From Candidatus Sungbacteria bacterium RIFCSPLOWO2_02_FULL_51_17 (GTDB lineage: Bacteria > Patescibacteriota > Minisyncoccia > Sungbacterales > GWA2-42-14): a stretch of 48,659 nucleotides of DNA. The stretch is from NCBI GenBank assembly GCA_001820785.1, contig MHQW01000006.1, positions 6,066 to 54,724 on the forward strand, written 5' to 3'. Position 1 is the stretch's first letter; each line of letters opens with the position of its first letter. A program made the translations under genes and the position numbers. Shown here piece by piece: positions 10,557 through 26,506 of this stretch. Under the pieces are notes generated by a model, which saw only the letters and a program-made list of their open reading frames with translations, did no database searches and had not been told where the DNA came from.

Positions 10557-11258
10557 TCATTTTCGCATCGTAAAGCGGCATCGGATAACCGTCCATAAAA
10601 TAAGAAAACCGTGCCGCCAGTTTATTTTCTTCCCTTCATTATAATTCCGTGGGTGATAACGGATGGGCACATCCACCGTGGCGTACCCGGCCTTAAGCAC
10701 CTTACACATGAGTTCGTTATCAAAATCAAAGTTATTCGTCTCAATATCTATCGCGTCAATGACTTTTTTTGAGAACGCCTTATAGCACGCCTCGTACTCG
10801 CGGATATCAGCCCAAAAAAGAATGTTCGTCGTCCAGGTGATGAGGTGATTGCCGAACCAGCTTAACCAATAGAGCGATTTATGGCGCCGCCCGTCGGAAT
10901 CCGGCTGAATGCGAAAACCGACCGCAACATCCGCCGCACCCGAAAGAATAGGCGCGATCATGGCCGGATAATCCTTTGGGTCATACTCAAGATCGGCATC
11001 CTGAATAATGACAATATCCCCCGTCACTTTTCTAAACCCCGTTTTCACCGCACCCCCTTTACCGAGATTTTTTTCGTGAAATACGTAGGTGATATCGGGA
11101 ATTTTTTTGAGTATTTCGCGCGTGCGGTCCCGCGAGCCGTCATCCACCACGATGATCTCGCGGGTAACGGCGCCAAGATCAACCGCCCTAATGCGGCGGA
11201 TAATCTCCTCAATGGTCTTTTCTTCATTGTATGCGGGAATGACAATAGAAAGTTTCAT
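10557..11258 (-). CDS. GT2 glycosyltransferase, DPM1-like
   Basis: 233 residues with the canonical GT-A start MKLSIVIPAYNEEKTI, VVDDGSRD (about 38-45), GKGGAVKTG and the metal-binding DADLEYDP (about 87-94). The soluble C-terminus has the conserved R-x-N-Y-x-E-G-K-K-I segment of dolichyl/polyprenyl-phosphate sugar synthases. It probably loads mannose, glucose or a related sugar onto polyprenyl phosphate at the cytoplasmic face. The ATG is one base from the stop of the GT39-like gene, so translation is coupled and the two products are likely functional partners. It is the last gene of the operon; no strong terminator was found. Confidence 0.9.
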   Translation of the reverse strand: MKLSIVIPAYNEEKTIEEIIRRIRAVDLGAVTREIIVVDDGSRDRTREILKKIPDITYVFHEKNLGKGGAVKTGFRKVTGDIVIIQDADLEYDPKDYPAMIAPILSGAADVAVGFRIQPDSDGRRHKSLYWLSWFGNHLITWTTNILFWADIREYEACYKAFSKKVIDAIDIETNNFDFDNELMCKVLKAGYATVDVPIRYHPRNYNEGKKINWRHGFLILWTVIRCRFTMRK

Positions 11259-12958: not shown

Positions 12959-13216
12959 TTAGGCAATGACCTTTAAGAGGCGCAAAAGGGTATACCGCAC
13001 GATGAGCAAGCCGCCGACCACCACAACGCTTGAAATAACGGTCGGTATGCGAAGAACGTCAATGAACACCCAAAGGAAAAAAACTTGCGCCACCATGAGC
13101 GTGCCGCCCGTCCACAGATAATGAAAAAAAGAGCGGTCAAAAAAATAGCGGACGAGCGCGGAGGTCTTCGCTAAAGGTTCTTCAGGATATGATGATGTTC
13201 CGTCTGTCATGGTCAT
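12959..13216 (-). CDS. half-size GtrA-like membrane protein
   Basis: 85 residues; the ATG at 13216 overlaps the upstream stop as ATGA. There are two predicted membrane helices (LWTGGTLMVAQVFFLWVFIDVL and VISSVVVVGGLLIVRY). F-x-x-YLWTGG and the end RYTLLRLLKV match the beginning and end of GtrA family proteins, which normally have four helices in about 130 residues. GtrA proteins help polyprenyl-phosphate sugars reach the outer face. The position between a GT39-like/GT2 pair and other envelope genes supports that role. The missing half means it either dimerises or is a degenerate copy. Confidence 0.65.
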   Translation of the reverse strand: MTMTDGTSSYPEEPLAKTSALVRYFFDRSFFHYLWTGGTLMVAQVFFLWVFIDVLRIPTVISSVVVVGGLLIVRYTLLRLLKVIA

Positions 13217-14841
13217 ATGCGTATCTCGCGGGTATAGACGACCTCGTTCTCTTTTTTTTCTATGATCTCCTGATGCCGGATCCGAAGCGGCGACCCCTCC
13301 TGCCGCTGATAATAGCGGGAACTCGGGATAAACGAGTACGATGATTTCTCCCCATAAAAAATTTCTGCATCCTCCGGCCGCACGCCAATGCGATCCCGTA
13401 CAATAACGCCATCGTCCATGATGCGAAATGACCGTTCAAACGGCACCCGCGTGCGGGGCGGCGCGGTGATAAGATATTTCCTAAGAATTTTTTTCAGCAA
13501 TGCCCGCACTCCGTCGAAGCGGCCGACGAGCATCTGAAATCCTTTGAAAGCGATCATCGTCCATGTCTTCATGAGGGGTTCCGACACCGATTTCAAAAAG
13601 CCCCTGCATGAAAAATTCTTTTCAAGCGCATTGGAACACATCACTGTGTTGGCGAGATCAAGCGCGTTTGATGTCATGGCGCTCCCCTTCACGATAGCAT
13701 CAACCCCCGAATCAAGATAGGCGCGTCCGCCCGTATACAGGCGAAAGGGCCCGCCTTTGTAAAGATTTGTCACGAAGTAGAAGCGCCCGGTATCAATAAC
13801 GCGAATACCGCATCGCGGAAAATAGCGGTCAATTCTCCGCTCACGCAAAAAATCCTCTATCGTTTTTCCCGGCAATTCTTTATACGCGAGACCGGCCTGC
13901 AGCCAATTATATAAAATATATGACAGATACCGGTCATCAAGATTCTGCGGCGTAATGCCGGAACCCCTCTCAAGAGATACGCGGCAAAATTCGCCGATAA
14001 GACGCGCCCGGTCGTGATGCGCGGCAAAAAGAGTGAACCCAGACGGGATCAGATATTCGGTGTTGCGAGAACCGTATTCCCCGCCCGCCGTGTAATTCGG
14101 GTGAAGAAAGTTCATTATGAAGTCGGTCGCGCGCGTGATGGCGCCGACCACCGCTTCATCCCCGCTTTTTGCGTGATACTTTACAAGATAATCCACGGTT
14201 AACGAAAGATAGCCGATGTCAGGCCCGCCGTATTCGCTCCACCACCCCTCGCTATCCTCTGCGCCAACAAGATCGCGGGCCTTCTTGTGCGCTCCATCTT
14301 TATATCGCGCATCCCCAGTTAGCATCCACATATTGATAAGCGCCAGAAGGCACCCGGCCTCCTGGTTCCGCACAAGCGACTCATTGTGCGACAATAACCA
14401 GTCGGCGGCGCGGGAAAGAGCATGCACGGCTTGCTCATACGAACGCACCACATCCTTCCCCAAGAGCAGAAGCGCTTCGGAAAGTGCGGCGGTAACGAAC
14501 GCCGTTGCGACAAACGACCCTTCGTACGGATACCATTCGGAAAACGAGCCATCGGTATCCTGGATTGAAAGAGAGAAGGCGAGCGAGGCATCGCACCAGG
14601 CGCGTATCCGCTTGTCGCCCGCATACGGGTTCCCCTCAACATCGGACGCATAGAGAAGCGCTAGCGTCAGCGCGGCCTCCTGGTGCCGGGCACAACTGAT
14701 ATCGGACGTGCGATAATGCCAATAGGCGCGATCAAACGATCCGTACGAACGCGACATGCGGTAGCGATCCAGCTGTCCTAAAAGACGCGGAACTTCGGCA
14801 ATCGCGGACCGGAGGAATATATTGTTTTTTATTTTTTGCAT
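13213..14841 (-). CDS. alpha/alpha-toroid-like protein of a surface glycan operon
   Basis: 542 residues from the ATG at 14841, which lies inside the end of the preceding gene. The N-terminal about 330 residues are helical with repeated motifs (RHQEAALTLALLY, QDTDGSFSEWYPYEGSFVATAFVTAAL, DSEGWWSEYGGPDIGYLSLTVDYL), as in alpha/alpha-toroids of glycan lyases, glycoside hydrolases or terpene cyclases. The C-terminal part is probably beta-rich (RYFPRCGIRVIDTGRFYFVTN). This resembles the overall plan of heparinase II/III-type proteins, but I see no diagnostic catalytic motif. No signal peptide is visible. The role is inferred only from context: glycan modification or trimming. Confidence 0.6.
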   Translation of the reverse strand: MQKIKNNIFLRSAIAEVPRLLGQLDRYRMSRSYGSFDRAYWHYRTSDISCARHQEAALTLALLYASDVEGNPYAGDKRIRAWCDASLAFSLSIQDTDGSFSEWYPYEGSFVATAFVTAALSEALLLLGKDVVRSYEQAVHALSRAADWLLSHNESLVRNQEAGCLLALINMWMLTGDARYKDGAHKKARDLVGAEDSEGWWSEYGGPDIGYLSLTVDYLVKYHAKSGDEAVVGAITRATDFIMNFLHPNYTAGGEYGSRNTEYLIPSGFTLFAAHHDRARLIGEFCRVSLERGSGITPQNLDDRYLSYILYNWLQAGLAYKELPGKTIEDFLRERRIDRYFPRCGIRVIDTGRFYFVTNLYKGGPFRLYTGGRAYLDSGVDAIVKGSAMTSNALDLANTVMCSNALEKNFSCRGFLKSVSEPLMKTWTMIAFKGFQMLVGRFDGVRALLKKILRKYLITAPPRTRVPFERSFRIMDDGVIVRDRIGVRPEDAEIFYGEKSSYSFIPSSRYYQRQEGSPLRIRHQEIIEKKENEVVYTREIRI

Positions 14842-16196
14842 CGGATGACAACGACCGAGCCGCACACGCCCGCGCGAAGAAACCCTTGAAACGCAAGCAG
14901 TCGCGAAAGAAGGCGGCTTATGACCGTTGAACGGATCTCACGGTGAAGATAACTTGACCCCTCGCTTTTACGATACTGAAGGAACATCTGGCACACCTGC
15001 TCGTAAAAAGTCGGTATGGGGAAATATCCGGACCACGCAATGGTTGAAAATCCCGCCCGCCGCAACTCGCCGACCGTTTGGAAAATGCGTATGGGCCGAT
15101 AGGGTCCAAAAAACGCATAGATGCCGGTGGTGCGGACATCGGGACCGAAATACCACTTCACGGCCGTGAAGAAAATTTTGAGAAACACGTTCGCATGCCG
15201 CGCAATAATGATAAGCTCGCCTCCCCGCTCAAGTGTCGCGTATGTTTTCGTAAAAAGCGCTTTTCGCACATCCGATGGCAAACGTTCAAGCCGGTAGATC
15301 ATCGTAACCGTTTGTACCGCACCCGGAAACAGCCGCGGCGCATGCTCATCGTAGACGGTATTCGTCAGAAGCGGTAGTGTATGGGGCGCCTGCTGTTCAA
15401 CGGCGGCCAGGGTGTATGCGGCCGTCTCCTCCGTCAGGTCAACGGTATGAAGGGGGCCGTGGGGAAATTCGCGGATAAAACTGCCGTCGTAGGAACATAG
15501 GTCAAGCGCGGGAAATCGCATTCCGGAAAGCTCGCGCTTCACCAGGACGCGTTCGTGTCCGCTCATAATGTCCATCTCCTTCCCGAGCGATGTTTTACGG
15601 CAATAGTATCGCTGGTGATACCGAAGTGTTTCCAACGTCCACCGATCGGGATCATACACAAACGGCGGCCGCCGCGAATGCCCGAACGCTCCCTCATGAA
15701 GCGCTTCCGCAAGCGGTTTTCTCGGAACCTTTGTCGCTTTTTCCGCGCGCGTATCCGGATACCCCAAAAGAACGAAACAGCATATCCGTTCGGTATCGGG
15801 AATTCCGAGGATGTATTTTACGCCGCTGTCCGCGCCGTAACTGTTCATCGGAAGCGCCCCCAGTCCGTAATATTCCGCGGCAAGAAGCATGTGCCCCACG
15901 GCAAGAGACGCCCCCTGGATCGCCTCCTTAAAATTCCATCCGTCATATGTGACGACAACGACGACCGGCGCCCTGCGAATATTCGTGTTTGAAGCCGCCT
16001 CGGTAACAAGGCGCTCTTTTGTCGCGGCATCGGTAACAACGATAAAATTCCACGCCTGCTGGTTGCAGTTCGTAGGCGCATTCGTCGCAAGTTCAAGGAT
16101 GCGCCGAACAACCGAAGGATCAACCCCGTCGGGCCCGAAACTTCGTATGCTTTTCCTGTTCCGCACAACATCAAGAAATGTTTTTTGAGGATCCAT
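14829..16196 (-). CDS. nitroreductase domain fused to a SAM-methyltransferase-like domain
   Basis: 455 residues. Residues 1 to about 175 are a flavin nitroreductase: RKSIRSF near the start (FMN phosphate), APTNCNQQAWNFIVVTD (about 40-56), LAAEYYGLGALPM and a C-terminal GYPDTRAEKATKVPRKPL. Residues about 205-440 look like a class I methyltransferase: FPALDLCSYDGSFIREF replaces the usual D-x-G-x-G motif I, followed by VDLTEE, a MIYRLERLP post-motif, and LERGGELIIIARH. The glycine-poor motif I suggests altered or lost SAM binding. It is the first gene of the operon ending with GT39-like and GT2 and overlaps the next gene by 13 bp. The reaction is unknown; reduction coupled to methyl transfer on a glycan precursor is a guess. 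Confidence 0.75.
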   Translation of the reverse strand: MDPQKTFLDVVRNRKSIRSFGPDGVDPSVVRRILELATNAPTNCNQQAWNFIVVTDAATKERLVTEAASNTNIRRAPVVVVVTYDGWNFKEAIQGASLAVGHMLLAAEYYGLGALPMNSYGADSGVKYILGIPDTERICCFVLLGYPDTRAEKATKVPRKPLAEALHEGAFGHSRRPPFVYDPDRWTLETLRYHQRYYCRKTSLGKEMDIMSGHERVLVKRELSGMRFPALDLCSYDGSFIREFPHGPLHTVDLTEETAAYTLAAVEQQAPHTLPLLTNTVYDEHAPRLFPGAVQTVTMIYRLERLPSDVRKALFTKTYATLERGGELIIIARHANVFLKIFFTAVKWYFGPDVRTTGIYAFFGPYRPIRIFQTVGELRRAGFSTIAWSGYFPIPTFYEQVCQMFLQYRKSEGSSYLHREIRSTVISRLLSRLLAFQGFLRAGVCGSVVVIRCKK

Positions 16197-22585: not shown

Positions 22586-24970
22586 TCAAGAGTGCGCCCG
22601 GCGAACATCAATGACAGGAAGAAGTTTCTCCATCATAGCGTTCGGCGTCAATTTCAATACGCTCATCTGCCCTTGATAGGCGATCTTGTTCCGGAGGCGC
22701 GTGTCGGAAAGCAGAAGCCGCATCGCATCCTCAAGTTCCCCCACGTCGTTGTAGGAGACCAACAAACCAGTTTCGCGATCGGTGATGATCTCGCTGTTAC
22801 CTCCCGTAGACGTAGTAATGACCGGGGTGCCAAGCGCCATTGCCTCAAGAAGCTGATGCGAAAATCCTTCATATCCGGTATTCAGCACGAACGCATCGGC
22901 CGCCCGTATATATAAAAATAACGTTTCCCGCCCGACACTGCCGAGAAGCACCACCTTTCCGACAAGATTACGAGCGCCGATCTCTTCTTCCAATATATGG
23001 CGTTCCGGTCCGCTTCCGGCTATATACAAGCGGGCGGCGGAATGCGCCACGCGAGCATCGGCAAATGCACCTATCAGCGCGCGAAACCCCTTCCACGGAA
23101 CAAGGCGCCCGGCAGAAAGAAAAAGTTCCGCCTTATCATCAAGACCAAGTTCGCCTCGGGCCTCGCGCGCGTCGGGAAAACGCTCGGGAACACTGATGCT
23201 GTTATGTACGACCGTGATGCGCTCCGGCGGCACCCCCCACCCCACCACCAACGTTTTTAAATATTCGCATGGCGTTATAACGCTGTCCGCGCGGCGGGAC
23301 ACGAACGACCGGCATATGCGGAGCAACCCGACACGAACCCCATACGACCCTTTTTGAAAATCATCAAGAAGATCGCGCACGCCGAATCGCTGAACTCCCC
23401 GCTCCCACGCGTAATCCCCCGTTATCTTCACGATGAATGCCTTGCCAAGAAGCCGTGCAGCCAGCCACGCCGGAAAGCCCGCGGGAACGGCGTCCTGCGC
23501 GTATACGACATCGGCATGAAGCGTTGCAAAAAAAACATGAATACAATACCATGCGTGCCGCAATCCCTTCGGGAGCGCACGCGAAATTCGGAAAACATCG
23601 GCATGGCGCACTCGCTCCGTGATCTCGCCAAGCGTCCGCTCCCTGACATCTTCCGGATCGGCGTATGTAACAACAGAGACCTTAAAGGCGCGCCGTGACA
23701 ACTCCTCCTCAAGAAGGGCCGATGCGGTCGCGGGCCCGCCGATATCGGGCGGAAAGATGCCGGTCGCAAGGACCACTGCGGTCTTTGACGCTTTTTCCAA
23801 CTCCCGATCAAACACGCCGCCAAATTCTTCCGCGATGCGTCCCCAATCATAGCGCGTTGCGATAAAACGCTTGGCTCCCGCGATGATGCGCCGCCGAAGA
23901 TCATCGTCGGAAAGCACTAGGCGGATCTTCTCGGCGATATCGCCGACATCGTCAACACCGACCTCAAGACCGGTCTTTCTATCCTCAAGAAAATCCGGAA
24001 TGCCCCCCACCGGAGTTCCGATAATGGGAACTCCCGCCGCCATCGCCTCAAGAAAAGAATTTCCCAAACCTTCTGATCGCGAAGGGCGGACAAATACATC
24101 GGCTATAGCAAGGAACTTCGGCAACTCATCGTGTAACACGGTCCCAACAAAAAGCACATGATCGGAAATGGCAAGACCAGCGGCAAGCTCGCGCAAGCGC
24201 GGCGCCTCCGGCCCCGTACCGAGAACGAGAAGCCGCACCCGCCGTCCGTCATGCATACGTACGCGCTCAAGAGCGCGCACAATCATGTCAACGGCGTTCT
24301 TTTTTACGAGGCGCGATGTGGTAATGACCACGCGCTCGCCCGATATAAGTCCGAGGGAGCGACGAAGCGTTAAAAGTTCGTCCTCCGGGTACTGCTTCGT
24401 AAAATGCGCTATGTCTACGCCATTCGGTATGACGGTGCCCCATTTTCCGTATCCGAATTTCCAGGCGACATGAAGAAGATACCGCGAGATCGCCGTCACC
24501 TGATCGGCGCAAAAAAGATCAAAACGCATCGTAAGATTGATAAGTCCGAGCCGCGACGTGCGCAGGTGTTCTTCCGGGTCTCCCTCCTGAAGTGTGAGAA
24601 TAAGCGGAATGCGGCCGAATATAGTTCGTAGAGCGCTTGCGGCAAGCGAGCCATAGGAGGCCATGACCGCCCATAAAATTTTTTTCCGCCCGCGCGACCG
24701 AACTATGATGGCAAGACACGCAAAAAACGCGAAAAAAGGAAGAAAGAACTTGTCGTGGCGGTGCCCGATGCCAAGGCGTACGATGTGCATTCCCGCGCGC
24801 TCCTCGCGGAACGGAAGCCGGCGTTCAAAGCGGCTCGTAAGAATATAAAAATCAAAACGATCGGCAAGCCGCGATGCGATCTCGCGTATCGCGATCTCAG
24901 CGCCCCCGACAAAGGGGTCGTAGGCCGTTGTAAAAACAATGATGATCGGTTTTTGAGAATGTTTGTTCAC
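22586..24970 (-). CDS. tandem GT4-GT4 fusion glycosyltransferase
   Basis: 794 residues from a GTG at 24970 (VNKHSQKPIIIVFTTAYDPFVGGAE). The open frame continues upstream but is not protein-like. Domain 1 (about 1-390) is a complete GT4 with TTSRLVKKNAVDMIVRAL, LGTGPEAPRL and SRSEGLGNSFLEAMAAG. Domain 2 (about 400-794) starts ATGIFPPDIGGPATAS and has SAGRLVPWKGFRALIGAF, AGSGPERHIL and TGYEGFSHQLLEAMALG. Both retain the E-x7-E motif, so both may be active and add two sugars in succession. Domain 2 is a paralogue of the GT4 at 20286-21431. No Shine-Dalgarno sequence. First gene of the second glycan block. Confidence 0.88.
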   Translation of the reverse strand: MNKHSQKPIIIVFTTAYDPFVGGAEIAIREIASRLADRFDFYILTSRFERRLPFREERAGMHIVRLGIGHRHDKFFLPFFAFFACLAIIVRSRGRKKILWAVMASYGSLAASALRTIFGRIPLILTLQEGDPEEHLRTSRLGLINLTMRFDLFCADQVTAISRYLLHVAWKFGYGKWGTVIPNGVDIAHFTKQYPEDELLTLRRSLGLISGERVVITTSRLVKKNAVDMIVRALERVRMHDGRRVRLLVLGTGPEAPRLRELAAGLAISDHVLFVGTVLHDELPKFLAIADVFVRPSRSEGLGNSFLEAMAAGVPIIGTPVGGIPDFLEDRKTGLEVGVDDVGDIAEKIRLVLSDDDLRRRIIAGAKRFIATRYDWGRIAEEFGGVFDRELEKASKTAVVLATGIFPPDIGGPATASALLEEELSRRAFKVSVVTYADPEDVRERTLGEITERVRHADVFRISRALPKGLRHAWYCIHVFFATLHADVVYAQDAVPAGFPAWLAARLLGKAFIVKITGDYAWERGVQRFGVRDLLDDFQKGSYGVRVGLLRICRSFVSRRADSVITPCEYLKTLVVGWGVPPERITVVHNSISVPERFPDAREARGELGLDDKAELFLSAGRLVPWKGFRALIGAFADARVAHSAARLYIAGSGPERHILEEEIGARNLVGKVVLLGSVGRETLFLYIRAADAFVLNTGYEGFSHQLLEAMALGTPVITTSTGGNSEIITDRETGLLVSYNDVGELEDAMRLLLSDTRLRNKIAYQGQMSVLKLTPNAMMEKLLPVIDVRRAHS

Positions 24971-25004
24971 TGGCAAAAAATATATAGCGCATGCACACCA
25001 CGCA

Positions 25005-25033
25005 ATTATATCATGGCGTATCGCGTATTTAAA
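25005..25033 (-). promoter_or_regulatory. promoter of the second glycan block
   Basis: Perfect -10 TATAAT (25005-25010), 17-bp spacer, weaker -35 TTTAAA (25028-25033). It lies about 35 bp before the GTG start. Confidence 0.5.
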
Positions 25034-25102
25034 GCGCGTGACCGACCACCGAACATGAGGGTATGTGCATAAATCAAGCGGCCGAATGTTCTTTCTCTCT
25101 TG

Positions 25103-25131
25103 GTAAGAAAAAACCCGGAAGATCCGGGTTT
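25103..25131 (-). terminator. terminator after the AAA-CYTH operon
   Basis: AAACCCGGA/TCCGGGTTT, a 9-bp stem followed by a T run on the minus strand. It abuts the stop codon of the 25131-25382 gene. Confidence 0.85.
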
Positions 25132-25382
25132 TATGCGAGCTCAAATACGGCGACGACCTCGTTCTCTTTCTTCTCCCATATGCGGTAGATAAGGATATAT
25201 CGCCGTCCGGGAATAATGGCAGTAAGCGCCGCATGATGCTGAAAGATCCCCGAGAGACGCGCTCTCGCATAGGCGGTTTCTTCTTCTGCTGCAACGCGCC
25301 ACGTGCCATCACGGCACCGCGAACACTCGCGAATGACACCCGCAAGATACCACACCCTGCTTGCGTTCTTCTTTCTGCACAT
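25131..25382 (-). CDS. small protein of unknown function, co-transcribed with AAA-CYTH
   Basis: 83 residues from the ATG at 25382, preceded by AAAGGAGG eight bases away; that ribosome site sits in the end of the upstream gene. It has an N-terminal basic stretch with three Cys (MCRKKN, CSRC) and then an alternating pattern suggesting a small alpha/beta domain (GRRYILIYRIWEKKENEVVAVFELA). No family is recognised. The very good ribosome site, 5-bp spacing to the AAA-CYTH gene and strong terminator argue that it is real and works with that protein. Confidence 0.65.
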   Translation of the reverse strand: MCRKKNASRVWYLAGVIRECSRCRDGTWRVAAEEETAYARARLSGIFQHHAALTAIIPGRRYILIYRIWEKKENEVVAVFELA

Positions 25383-25387
25383 GATCA

Positions 25388-26506
25388 CTACCTCCTTTTG
25401 GCAAGCGCCCGGTTCGTAAACGCCGGGTCTTCCGTCACGTCAGTAACGGTCCCCATAAAGCCCGGAATATCTATCCGATCATTTTTGTCGGTAAGTTCTA
25501 TTTCCAGCAAGGTGAGTCCGCAAAGCCGCGCCGGCTCCAGGAATACATCAAGTTCAAAATATTGTGAGTTCCACAAAAAGCAGTACCGCTTTTTCCTGAT
25601 GGTTTCGCGCGAGACATCGCATTCGTCTCGAACAAAGTAGTAATACTGCAAAGGGGTGATCCCCCGCTCAAGCTCAATGCGAACGCTCGGCTCAACATCA
25701 TACTTTTTCGTAAGATAGTACACATCGCGCCCGTTCTGCCCCCGCTTCCGGACCCGCCGCCCAAACTTCCCGTCAGCGGTAAGATAGATCTGCTCAATAT
25801 CTATTTCGGCGATATGGATGTCGGAACGCACAAGAAGCTGGTCAAGCACGGGATTGTGGACCAAGAACTTGCGCTCTATCTCAAGAGGAACCGGGATGCC
25901 GACCACACGGCAAATGCTTGCAAGAAGCCGCTTCAGCTTTCCCTCAAAATCGGTGCTGTTATCAATGAGGCGCACATGCGGATGCCCTACCCACGCCGCG
26001 CGCGTTTTCATATCGGCGAGCGCCGCCTTTTCCAAGGTGTCCTCAACTCGGCACTTGTTGGTATCAAGCGTGTAGAATTTTTCAGCGCCTATGGCCGCAG
26101 TCACAAGATGGTTCACGGACGCGTAGCGGTCCCATAACTGCGGGACGCTATATCCTAGGGTCTCGGCCATGGCATTGAACTCAGCGGGATCCATATACGC
26201 CCTGCCGTCCATCGTTCCGCGGTCGCAGAAAAGCACCAGCTTGCCGCCGTGCATGTGCTTGATGATCTTTCTGAAACGGTCTTCCTTCTCTATTTGCGCA
26301 AGAAATATCTGCTTCTGGAATTGCTTTGCGGAAAGTCCGTTCCCGCCTATCGTAACTCCGGCGGAAAAGAGCTCCGTCGGCGTCTCCGGAACCACGAGGC
26401 ACGACACCCCGTATTCAGAAAGTTTTTCCGGGATACGCTGAAGAGCCGTTGTTTTTCCTCCGCACGGCCCCCCGGTAAGCACGATGACCGGAATATCGCG
26501 CGCCAT
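25388..26506 (-). CDS. AAA_28 P-loop NTPase fused to a CYTH domain (TTD14-like)
   Basis: 372 residues; AAGGGG lies about eight bases before the ATG. Residues 1 to about 190 are a P-loop kinase/ATPase with Walker A GGPCGGKT (about 12-19), VPETPTELF, and the Walker B-like LVLFCDRGTMDG. Residues about 205-360 are a CYTH triphosphate tunnel domain opening with the EIERKFLV signature and continuing with RRVRKRG, YYLTKKY and ELDVF. This order matches the animal TTD14 type, reported to bind phosphoinositide and GTP, and uncharacterised bacterial relatives. CYTH domains bind or hydrolyse triphosphates. The bacterial role is unknown. Two-gene operon with the small downstream protein. Confidence 0.88.
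   Translation of the reverse strand: MARDIPVIVLTGGPCGGKTTALQRIPEKLSEYGVSCLVVPETPTELFSAGVTIGGNGLSAKQFQKQIFLAQIEKEDRFRKIIKHMHGGKLVLFCDRGTMDGRAYMDPAEFNAMAETLGYSVPQLWDRYASVNHLVTAAIGAEKFYTLDTNKCRVEDTLEKAALADMKTRAAWVGHPHVRLIDNSTDFEGKLKRLLASICRVVGIPVPLEIERKFLVHNPVLDQLLVRSDIHIAEIDIEQIYLTADGKFGRRVRKRGQNGRDVYYLTKKYDVEPSVRIELERGITPLQYYYFVRDECDVSRETIRKKRYCFLWNSQYFELDVFLEPARLCGLTLLEIELTDKNDRIDIPGFMGTVTDVTEDPAFTNRALAKRR

Follow-up and report, generated by a model that had tools for sequence, protein, structure and literature searches.

A nitroreductase-methyltransferase-fold fusion encoded with an ArnC-like glycosyltransferase and an alpha/alpha-toroid protein in candidate-phyla bacteria and archaea

The best described systems that resemble the genes considered here are the Arn pathway of undecaprenyl-phosphate-4-amino-4-deoxy-L-arabinose, comprising ArnC (a family 2 glycosyltransferase, GT2), ArnD, a flippase and ArnT (a GT-C glycosyltransferase), and the three-component GtrABC-type systems of extracytoplasmic glycosylation, which combine a polyprenyl-phosphate-sugar synthase, a small flippase-like protein and a GT-C enzyme (PMC11127046). 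A precedent for the redox change of a polyprenyl-phosphate-bound sugar is given by DprE1/E2 (PMC11127046), while in F420 biosynthesis dehydro-F420-0 is reduced by FbiB (PMC6450877). In this work, we analyzed a gene encoding a nitroreductase fused to a methyltransferase-fold domain, located in a stretch of 48,659 nucleotides (further referred to as the window) of contig MHQW01000006.1 of Candidatus Sungbacteria bacterium RIFCSPLOWO2_02_FULL_51_17. It should be stressed that the unit of interest is not the fusion alone, but the trio that it forms with the genes of an ArnC-like GT2 and of an alpha/alpha-toroid protein. No description of the fusion or of this cassette was found in the open-access literature. 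To our knowledge, the surface glycans of bacteria of the candidate phyla radiation (CPR) and of DPANN archaea are almost uncharacterised, although attachment to a host is thought to be the way of life of many such cells.

A linked trio of genes and the proteins it encodes

In each of the 11 main-family loci, a homologue of the ArnC-like GT2 lies beside the fusion gene, and the toroid gene is likewise present in every main-family genome found, which establishes the three-gene linkage. The GT2-fusion-toroid order is collinear in eight of the 11 loci, with genes that overlap or abut, and is rearranged in genomes G409, G595 and G565. An archaeal locus (L006) contains just these three genes in a housekeeping surrounding, with a prolyl-tRNA synthetase gene next to them, and this trio is the minimal unit. 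An earlier note on this DNA, made from the sequence alone, had pointed to the overlap of the fusion and toroid genes in the window, which amounts to 13 nt, and to a glycan-operon setting; the GtrA-like, GT39-like and GT2 genes that it listed do lie downstream, but it omitted the upstream ArnC-like GT2, which is no less constant than the toroid. Toroid homologues were detected in about 20 genomes, including eight clear cases without a fusion in their locus (L018-L020, L041, L045-L048), and the toroid family is therefore wider than the cassette.

Because the closest solved structures of the window GT2 are those of ArnC (phmmer E=6.5e-44), yet its score against the NCBIfam ArnC model (171 bits) is below the 529-bit equivalog cut-off, the protein was assigned at the class level, as a predicted polyprenyl-phosphate transferase of the ArnC/GtrB/DPM class, a homology that does not specify the sugar.

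The fusion gene is an open reading frame (ORF) of 455 codons without an internal stop, in which both domains proposed in the earlier note were recognised. Residues 11-167 match PF00881 (Nitroreductase) with E=3.2e-24 and 86.4 bits versus a gathering score of 23.5, and so do all 11 full-length members of the family; moreover, this half matches solved nitroreductases by sequence and by fold (Foldseek E=6e-14). The motifs RKSIRSF (from residue 14) and APTNCNQQAW (from residue 40), on which a flavin nitroreductase had been proposed for the first ~175 residues, keep the flavin mononucleotide (FMN)-site pattern RxSxR plus P-x-x-x-N-x-Q, with R14, S16, R18, P41, N45 and Q47 invariant in the 11-member alignment. 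The nitroreductase-like C-terminal domain of FbiB is a precedent for a C=C reductase, and its NCBIfam model matches the fusion weakly, with scores under the equivalog cut-offs. The AlphaFold2 model of the whole fusion had a mean per-residue confidence (pLDDT) of 86.7 and a predicted template modelling score (pTM) of 0.83.

The suggestion that the second half is a class I methyltransferase with a degenerate S-adenosyl methionine (SAM) motif holds at the level of the fold. The Pfam/NCBIfam scan of residues ~180-455 of the window protein gave no family above the cut-off, Methyltransf_25/23 matches in other members were below threshold (best E=0.0014), and a profile search of PDB with this half returned weak methyltransferase matches only (E of 0.08-0.36). 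The 11-member C-terminal profile aligned with canonical class I methyltransferases over 169 columns (hhalign 98.9%, E=1e-17); these references were gathered with the same profile, yet they bear textbook motifs. Structure prediction, proposed earlier as a check, agrees: in the AlphaFold2 model of the fusion, this half shows the alternating strand/helix order expected for a class I methyltransferase. A Foldseek search with the fusion model lists phosphoethanolamine methyltransferase 4kri (E=2.4e-11), a match not assigned to either half. As modelled, the C-terminal half has a class I methyltransferase fold, whose landmarks are the degenerate motif I LDLCSYDG (231-238), the acidic D253, a GGELIII post-motif and a hydrophobic segment (~328-350). 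The motif I signature D/E-x-G-x-G-x-G is replaced by D-x-x-[ST]-Y-D-G in 11/11 members, in which the last Gly alone remains; besides this loss of the first glycine from the SAM loop, some four residues are missing from helix A. D232, Y236, D237 and G238 are invariant in the 11 members, and the acidic residue closing beta-2, D253, is present in 10 of them.

The third protein was modelled with high confidence (pLDDT 91.6, pTM 0.93) as an (alpha/alpha)n toroid plus an antiparallel beta-sheet, and its closest folds found with Foldseek are a polysaccharide lyase of family 33 (PL33, E=7.6e-9), chondroitin AC lyase, alginate lyase and heparinase III. Its sequence search against PDB gave weak complement C4/TED matches only (best E=0.0098), taken as reflecting the common toroid fold. 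PL33 has its fold and catalytic residues in common with human dermatan sulfate epimerase 1 (PMC11848413, PMC8006597), and since small active-site changes were proposed to separate lyases from epimerases in that superfamily (PMC8006597), the toroid could be either of the two. N159 and Y211 do not vary among the aligned cassette members or in a wider set of toroids, and their spacing (52 residues) is about that of N238 and Y291 of PL33 (53).

Distribution and conservation of the fusion

A search for the same fusion in other genomes, as recommended in the earlier note, brought the number of genomes with full-length members to 11 (including that of the window), plus two of a divergent subfamily. 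The 11 proteins are 442-461 aa long and 41-56% identical to the window protein, and their carriers are candidate-phyla bacteria and Woesearchaeota-type archaea. Searches with the fusion identified G040 (of the window's class), a Ca. Kaiserbacteria genome and archaeal sequences in three records, two of which bear the name Woesearchaeota, whereas one further bacterial and four further archaeal genomes were found near toroid matches.

Toroid and methyltransferase profiles were run against the same samples of 663 genomes in all, 384 from the class to which the window belongs and 279 from the archaeal phylum. Strong matches to the methyltransferase domain occurred in nine of them, every one within a fusion frame of 450-472 aa and in a genome that also has the toroid (hypergeometric P=3e-15, uncorrected for relatedness, the branch lengths within the group being large). 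Among the strong matches in these 663 genomes, no methyltransferase domain lacked the nitroreductase; weaker profile matches (E>1e-10 elsewhere in the phylum, as well as G615) were rejected as ordinary methyltransferases. A split version of the fusion was not found either, as the solo nitroreductases of G053 and G039 (L085 and L086) adjoin neither a methyltransferase nor a toroid; that of G039 (L086:7176-7739, 187 aa) lies in a cluster which, judged by eye, is of the sialic/legionaminic-acid sugar type. The IMG/VR scan revealed no relative, and a plasmid search no relative of the C-terminal half.

The second subfamily, represented by G178 (methyltransferase profile E=6e-13) and G145, is ~28% identical to the main family over the full length. 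Its fusion genes overlap divergent toroid genes (toroid profile E=7e-6 and 5e-7, with weak profile-profile support, E=0.012) and a different GT-C adjoins. Motif I is degenerate in both subfamilies, i.e., D-L-F-S-Y-D-G in the main and D-F-L-P-S-T-G in the divergent one.

Mean pairwise identity among the 11 members is highest in the junction between the domains (61%), compared with 52% in the nitroreductase and 42% in the C-terminal domain, within which the Rossmann core is lowest (37%) and segment 350-420 reaches 56%. The junction being the best conserved stretch, it is suggested that the nitroreductase and methyltransferase-fold halves work together. Furthermore, the four bacterial fusions form one clade, which has full support in both trees (fusion and toroid) and is placed within or beside the archaeal diversity. 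One passage of the cassette between DPANN archaea and CPR bacteria, in either direction, would fit this topology.

Proposed role and alternative explanations

We give roughly even chances to a three-gene module, with the fusion among its enzymes, that tailors a polyprenyl-phosphate-borne sugar in the Arn/Gtr manner. From context and fold we infer the lipid-linked substrate, the order of steps, the direction of the redox reaction, methyl transfer, flipping and final transfer. The ArnC-like GT2 would charge polyprenyl phosphate with a sugar on the inner side of the membrane, and the toroid, with its uronate lyase/epimerase fold, would most likely perform C5-proton chemistry (epimerisation or elimination) on the lipid-borne sugar. 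The nitroreductase half would catalyse an FMN-dependent two-electron hydride step, reduction or isomerisation, and the C-terminal half would O-methylate the sugar or hold the substrate. The product would then be flipped by a GtrA/LAB_N/LPG-synthase-like membrane protein and handed by a PMT-type GT-C to a surface glycan or protein. For the new tailoring reaction in lipid-linked sugar synthesis put forward in the earlier note, the domains and the setting thus find support, the ArnC-like GT2 and the toroid being constant, while the reaction itself, although the likeliest interpretation, stays at the level of what context and fold suggest. Methyl transfer is its least certain step, because the SAM loop is degenerate, helix A is short and the surrounding core is the least conserved; SAM-dependent methylation by the C-terminal half is slightly favoured.

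A more specific scheme, which we regard as a long shot, is a new remodelling in which the toroid would eliminate or enolise at C4-C5, the flavin domain would reduce or isomerise the resulting C=C/C=O and the methyltransferase would methylate, giving an undescribed deoxy- or methyl-sugar in CPR and DPANN via gene transfer. The 5-O-methyl-4-deoxy-hexos-5-ulose of Methanococcus was considered as a chemical analogue, but is an idea only, with no gene-level link.

As regards the sugar, three archaeal toroid genes without a fusion (L046:1762-5728, L047:5166-9141, L048:1993-9640) have as neighbours genes of NAD-dependent epimerases and of nucleotide-sugar dehydrogenases, the latter TuaD-like in L047 and L048, which is likely a uronic-acid pathway in archaea. 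Together with the nucleotide-sugar dehydrogenase encoded between the fusion and the GT2 in the L044 cassette, these enzymes suggest a uronic-acid substrate.

Several observations weigh against the tailoring role or parts of it. No invariant His corresponding to the catalytic H444 of PL33 was seen in the toroid alignments (cassette members and wider set), so the toroid chemistry may differ from that of PL33. In the C-terminal half, the missing glycine signature and the shortened helix A are accompanied by sub-threshold scores of all Pfam methyltransferase models. The flippase-like neighbours come from three families, and near the L006 trio there is neither a flippase nor a GT-C gene; hence the components for export and transfer lie outside the constant part of the cassette. 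Finally, in the four genomes of the bacterial clade, that of the window included, only partial matches to nucleotide-sugar dehydrogenase domains were found, which weakens the case for a uronic-acid substrate there; a universal one was not upheld.

Among the alternatives, the strongest, although somewhat less probable than the tailoring role, is that the C-terminal half is a dead methyltransferase fold, holding the lipid-linked sugar or docking partners, and that all the chemistry is done by the nitroreductase. This would fit the degeneration of motif I in both subfamilies and the low conservation of the Rossmann core relative to the junction and segment 350-420; however, the invariant D232, Y236, D237 and G238 and the nearly invariant D253 suggest that the nucleotide end still binds a ligand. 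Rather unlikely is that the module acts before the GT2, on a nucleotide sugar or another soluble intermediate. Known sugar methyltransferases and oxidoreductases mostly use nucleotide sugars, and the dehydrogenase inside the L044 cassette is in line with this, but the isolated L006 trio has no nucleotide-sugar enzyme beside it, the toroid fold is one acting on glycosidically linked uronates, and the methyltransferase domain contains the hydrophobic segment mentioned above. We give little credence to the possibility that an acidic glycan is imported and then broken down or remodelled by the three genes, rather than synthesised by them. The structures that the toroid resembles most are indeed those of degradative polysaccharide lyases, but it is constantly paired with an ArnC-like transferase of the biosynthetic kind, glycosyltransferase genes abound in most loci and inspection of the toroid sequence by eye showed no secretion signal. 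An ordinary nitroreductase (such enzymes are common, occurring in 14/14 control genomes) extended by chance at its C terminus, or a misassembly or sequencing error joining two genes, is refuted by the recurrence of the same architecture in 11 independent genomes from two domains of life and in the two divergent ones, with the junction as its best conserved part.

Neighbouring genes and comparison with known systems

The coordinates of the cassette and of the adjacent genes are collected in Table 1. PMT-type GT-C and small flippase-like genes lie near most of the cassettes scanned, in the window and in several other loci, the flippase-like proteins being GtrA-like (window, L044), LAB_N (L005, L016, L040) or LPG_synthase_TM (L007). 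The GtrA-like protein of the window has no Pfam match of its own and is 36% identical over 50 aa to its counterpart in L044, which itself matches PF04138 below the cut-off (E=0.0019).

Table 1. Features of the cassette and of the adjacent genes in the window.
Feature	Coordinates	Strand	Evidence
ArnC/GtrB/DPM1-type GT2, polyprenyl-phosphate glycosyltransferase-like, 315 aa	16209..17156	-	phmmer, NCBIfam; directly upstream of fusion
Nitroreductase-methyltransferase-fold fusion, 455 aa	14829..16196	-	ORF, PF00881, AlphaFold2, hhalign, 11 full-length members
FMN nitroreductase domain, residues 5-171	15684..16184	-	PF00881, Foldseek
Best conserved junction segment, residues 181-215 (..QRYYCRKTxLGKEMDIM..E)	15552..15656	-	mean pairwise identity
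Class I methyltransferase-fold domain, residues ~213-455	14832..15560	-	profiles, AlphaFold2, motif positions
Alpha/alpha-toroid plus beta-sheet protein, 542 aa, PL33/PL8/PL12 lyase fold	13213..14841	-	AlphaFold2, Foldseek
Small membrane protein, GtrA-like, 85 aa, candidate flippase component	12959..13216	-	likeness to L044 protein
PMT/GT39-like GT-C glycosyltransferase, 568 aa	11260..12966	-	PF13231 E=8e-11, PF02366 E=3.5e-8
Second GT2, 233 aa, not constant in cassette	10557..11258	-	PF00535 E=1.7e-36

Matches to the UDP-glucose/GDP-mannose dehydrogenase N-domain in G000 (C47:19414-19704 and C47:52007-52306) are partial only (positions ~72-184, in frames of 274-296 aa), and the frames with this domain are similarly short in the other cassette-bearing bacteria, which may indicate a truncated dehydrogenase family. 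Asparagine-synthase-type amidotransferases, which could make sugar amides, are located close to toroids in L016:465-2300, L018:5119-6993, L019:6335-8227 and L043:3932-5833. Elsewhere in the window, on the minus strand, there are genes of a 174-aa protein in which a cytidylyltransferase-like domain (PF01467) precedes a C-terminal SEC-C zinc motif (PF02810; 19718-20242), a 919-aa ORF with two complete GT4-type glycosyltransferases in tandem (PF00534 and PF13439, two stretches; 22586-25345), and a protein with an AAA_28 P-loop domain, whose C-terminal part looks CYTH-like by eye (EIERKFLV; 25388-26506).

A compact trio common to bacteria and archaea offers a testable entry to the surface glycans of CPR and DPANN cells. 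If the tailoring role is true, a flavin nitroreductase and a divergent methyltransferase would join the modifiers of lipid-linked sugars, where DprE1/E2 are the main redox precedent, and a lyase/epimerase fold would be placed in the biosynthesis of monosaccharide donors.

Compared with described enzymes, the fusion is similar to the PF00881 nitroreductases in fold and FMN-site motifs, but differs by the attached methyltransferase fold. With class I SAM methyltransferases (Methyltransf_11/23/25) it has in common the fold, the strand order, the acidic residue after beta-2 and the post-motif GG, whereas the degenerate glycine loop, the short helix A, the long conserved C-terminal part and the N-terminal nitroreductase set it apart. 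The toroid resembles the PL33/PL8/PL12 lyases and dermatan sulfate epimerase 1 in its toroid plus beta-sheet fold, but the sequence identity is about 12% and, unlike them, it is encoded with a biosynthetic GT2. At the level of whole systems, the cassette is similar to the Arn pathway in its GT2, which is closest to ArnC though below the equivalog cut-off, in the candidate tailoring genes beside it and in the PMT-type GT-C near most cassettes; where the Arn pathway uses a deformylase, the cassette has the fusion and the lyase-fold toroid. It resembles the GtrABC-type systems in its predicted polyprenyl-phosphate-sugar synthase and, where these are encoded nearby, in a small flippase-like protein and a GT-C, differing in the tailoring enzymes, in a flippase family that varies by locus and in a GT-C that is not always present. 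Judging its function from context and fold, we place the cassette as a new, uncharacterised tailoring variant of the polyprenyl-phosphate-sugar systems.

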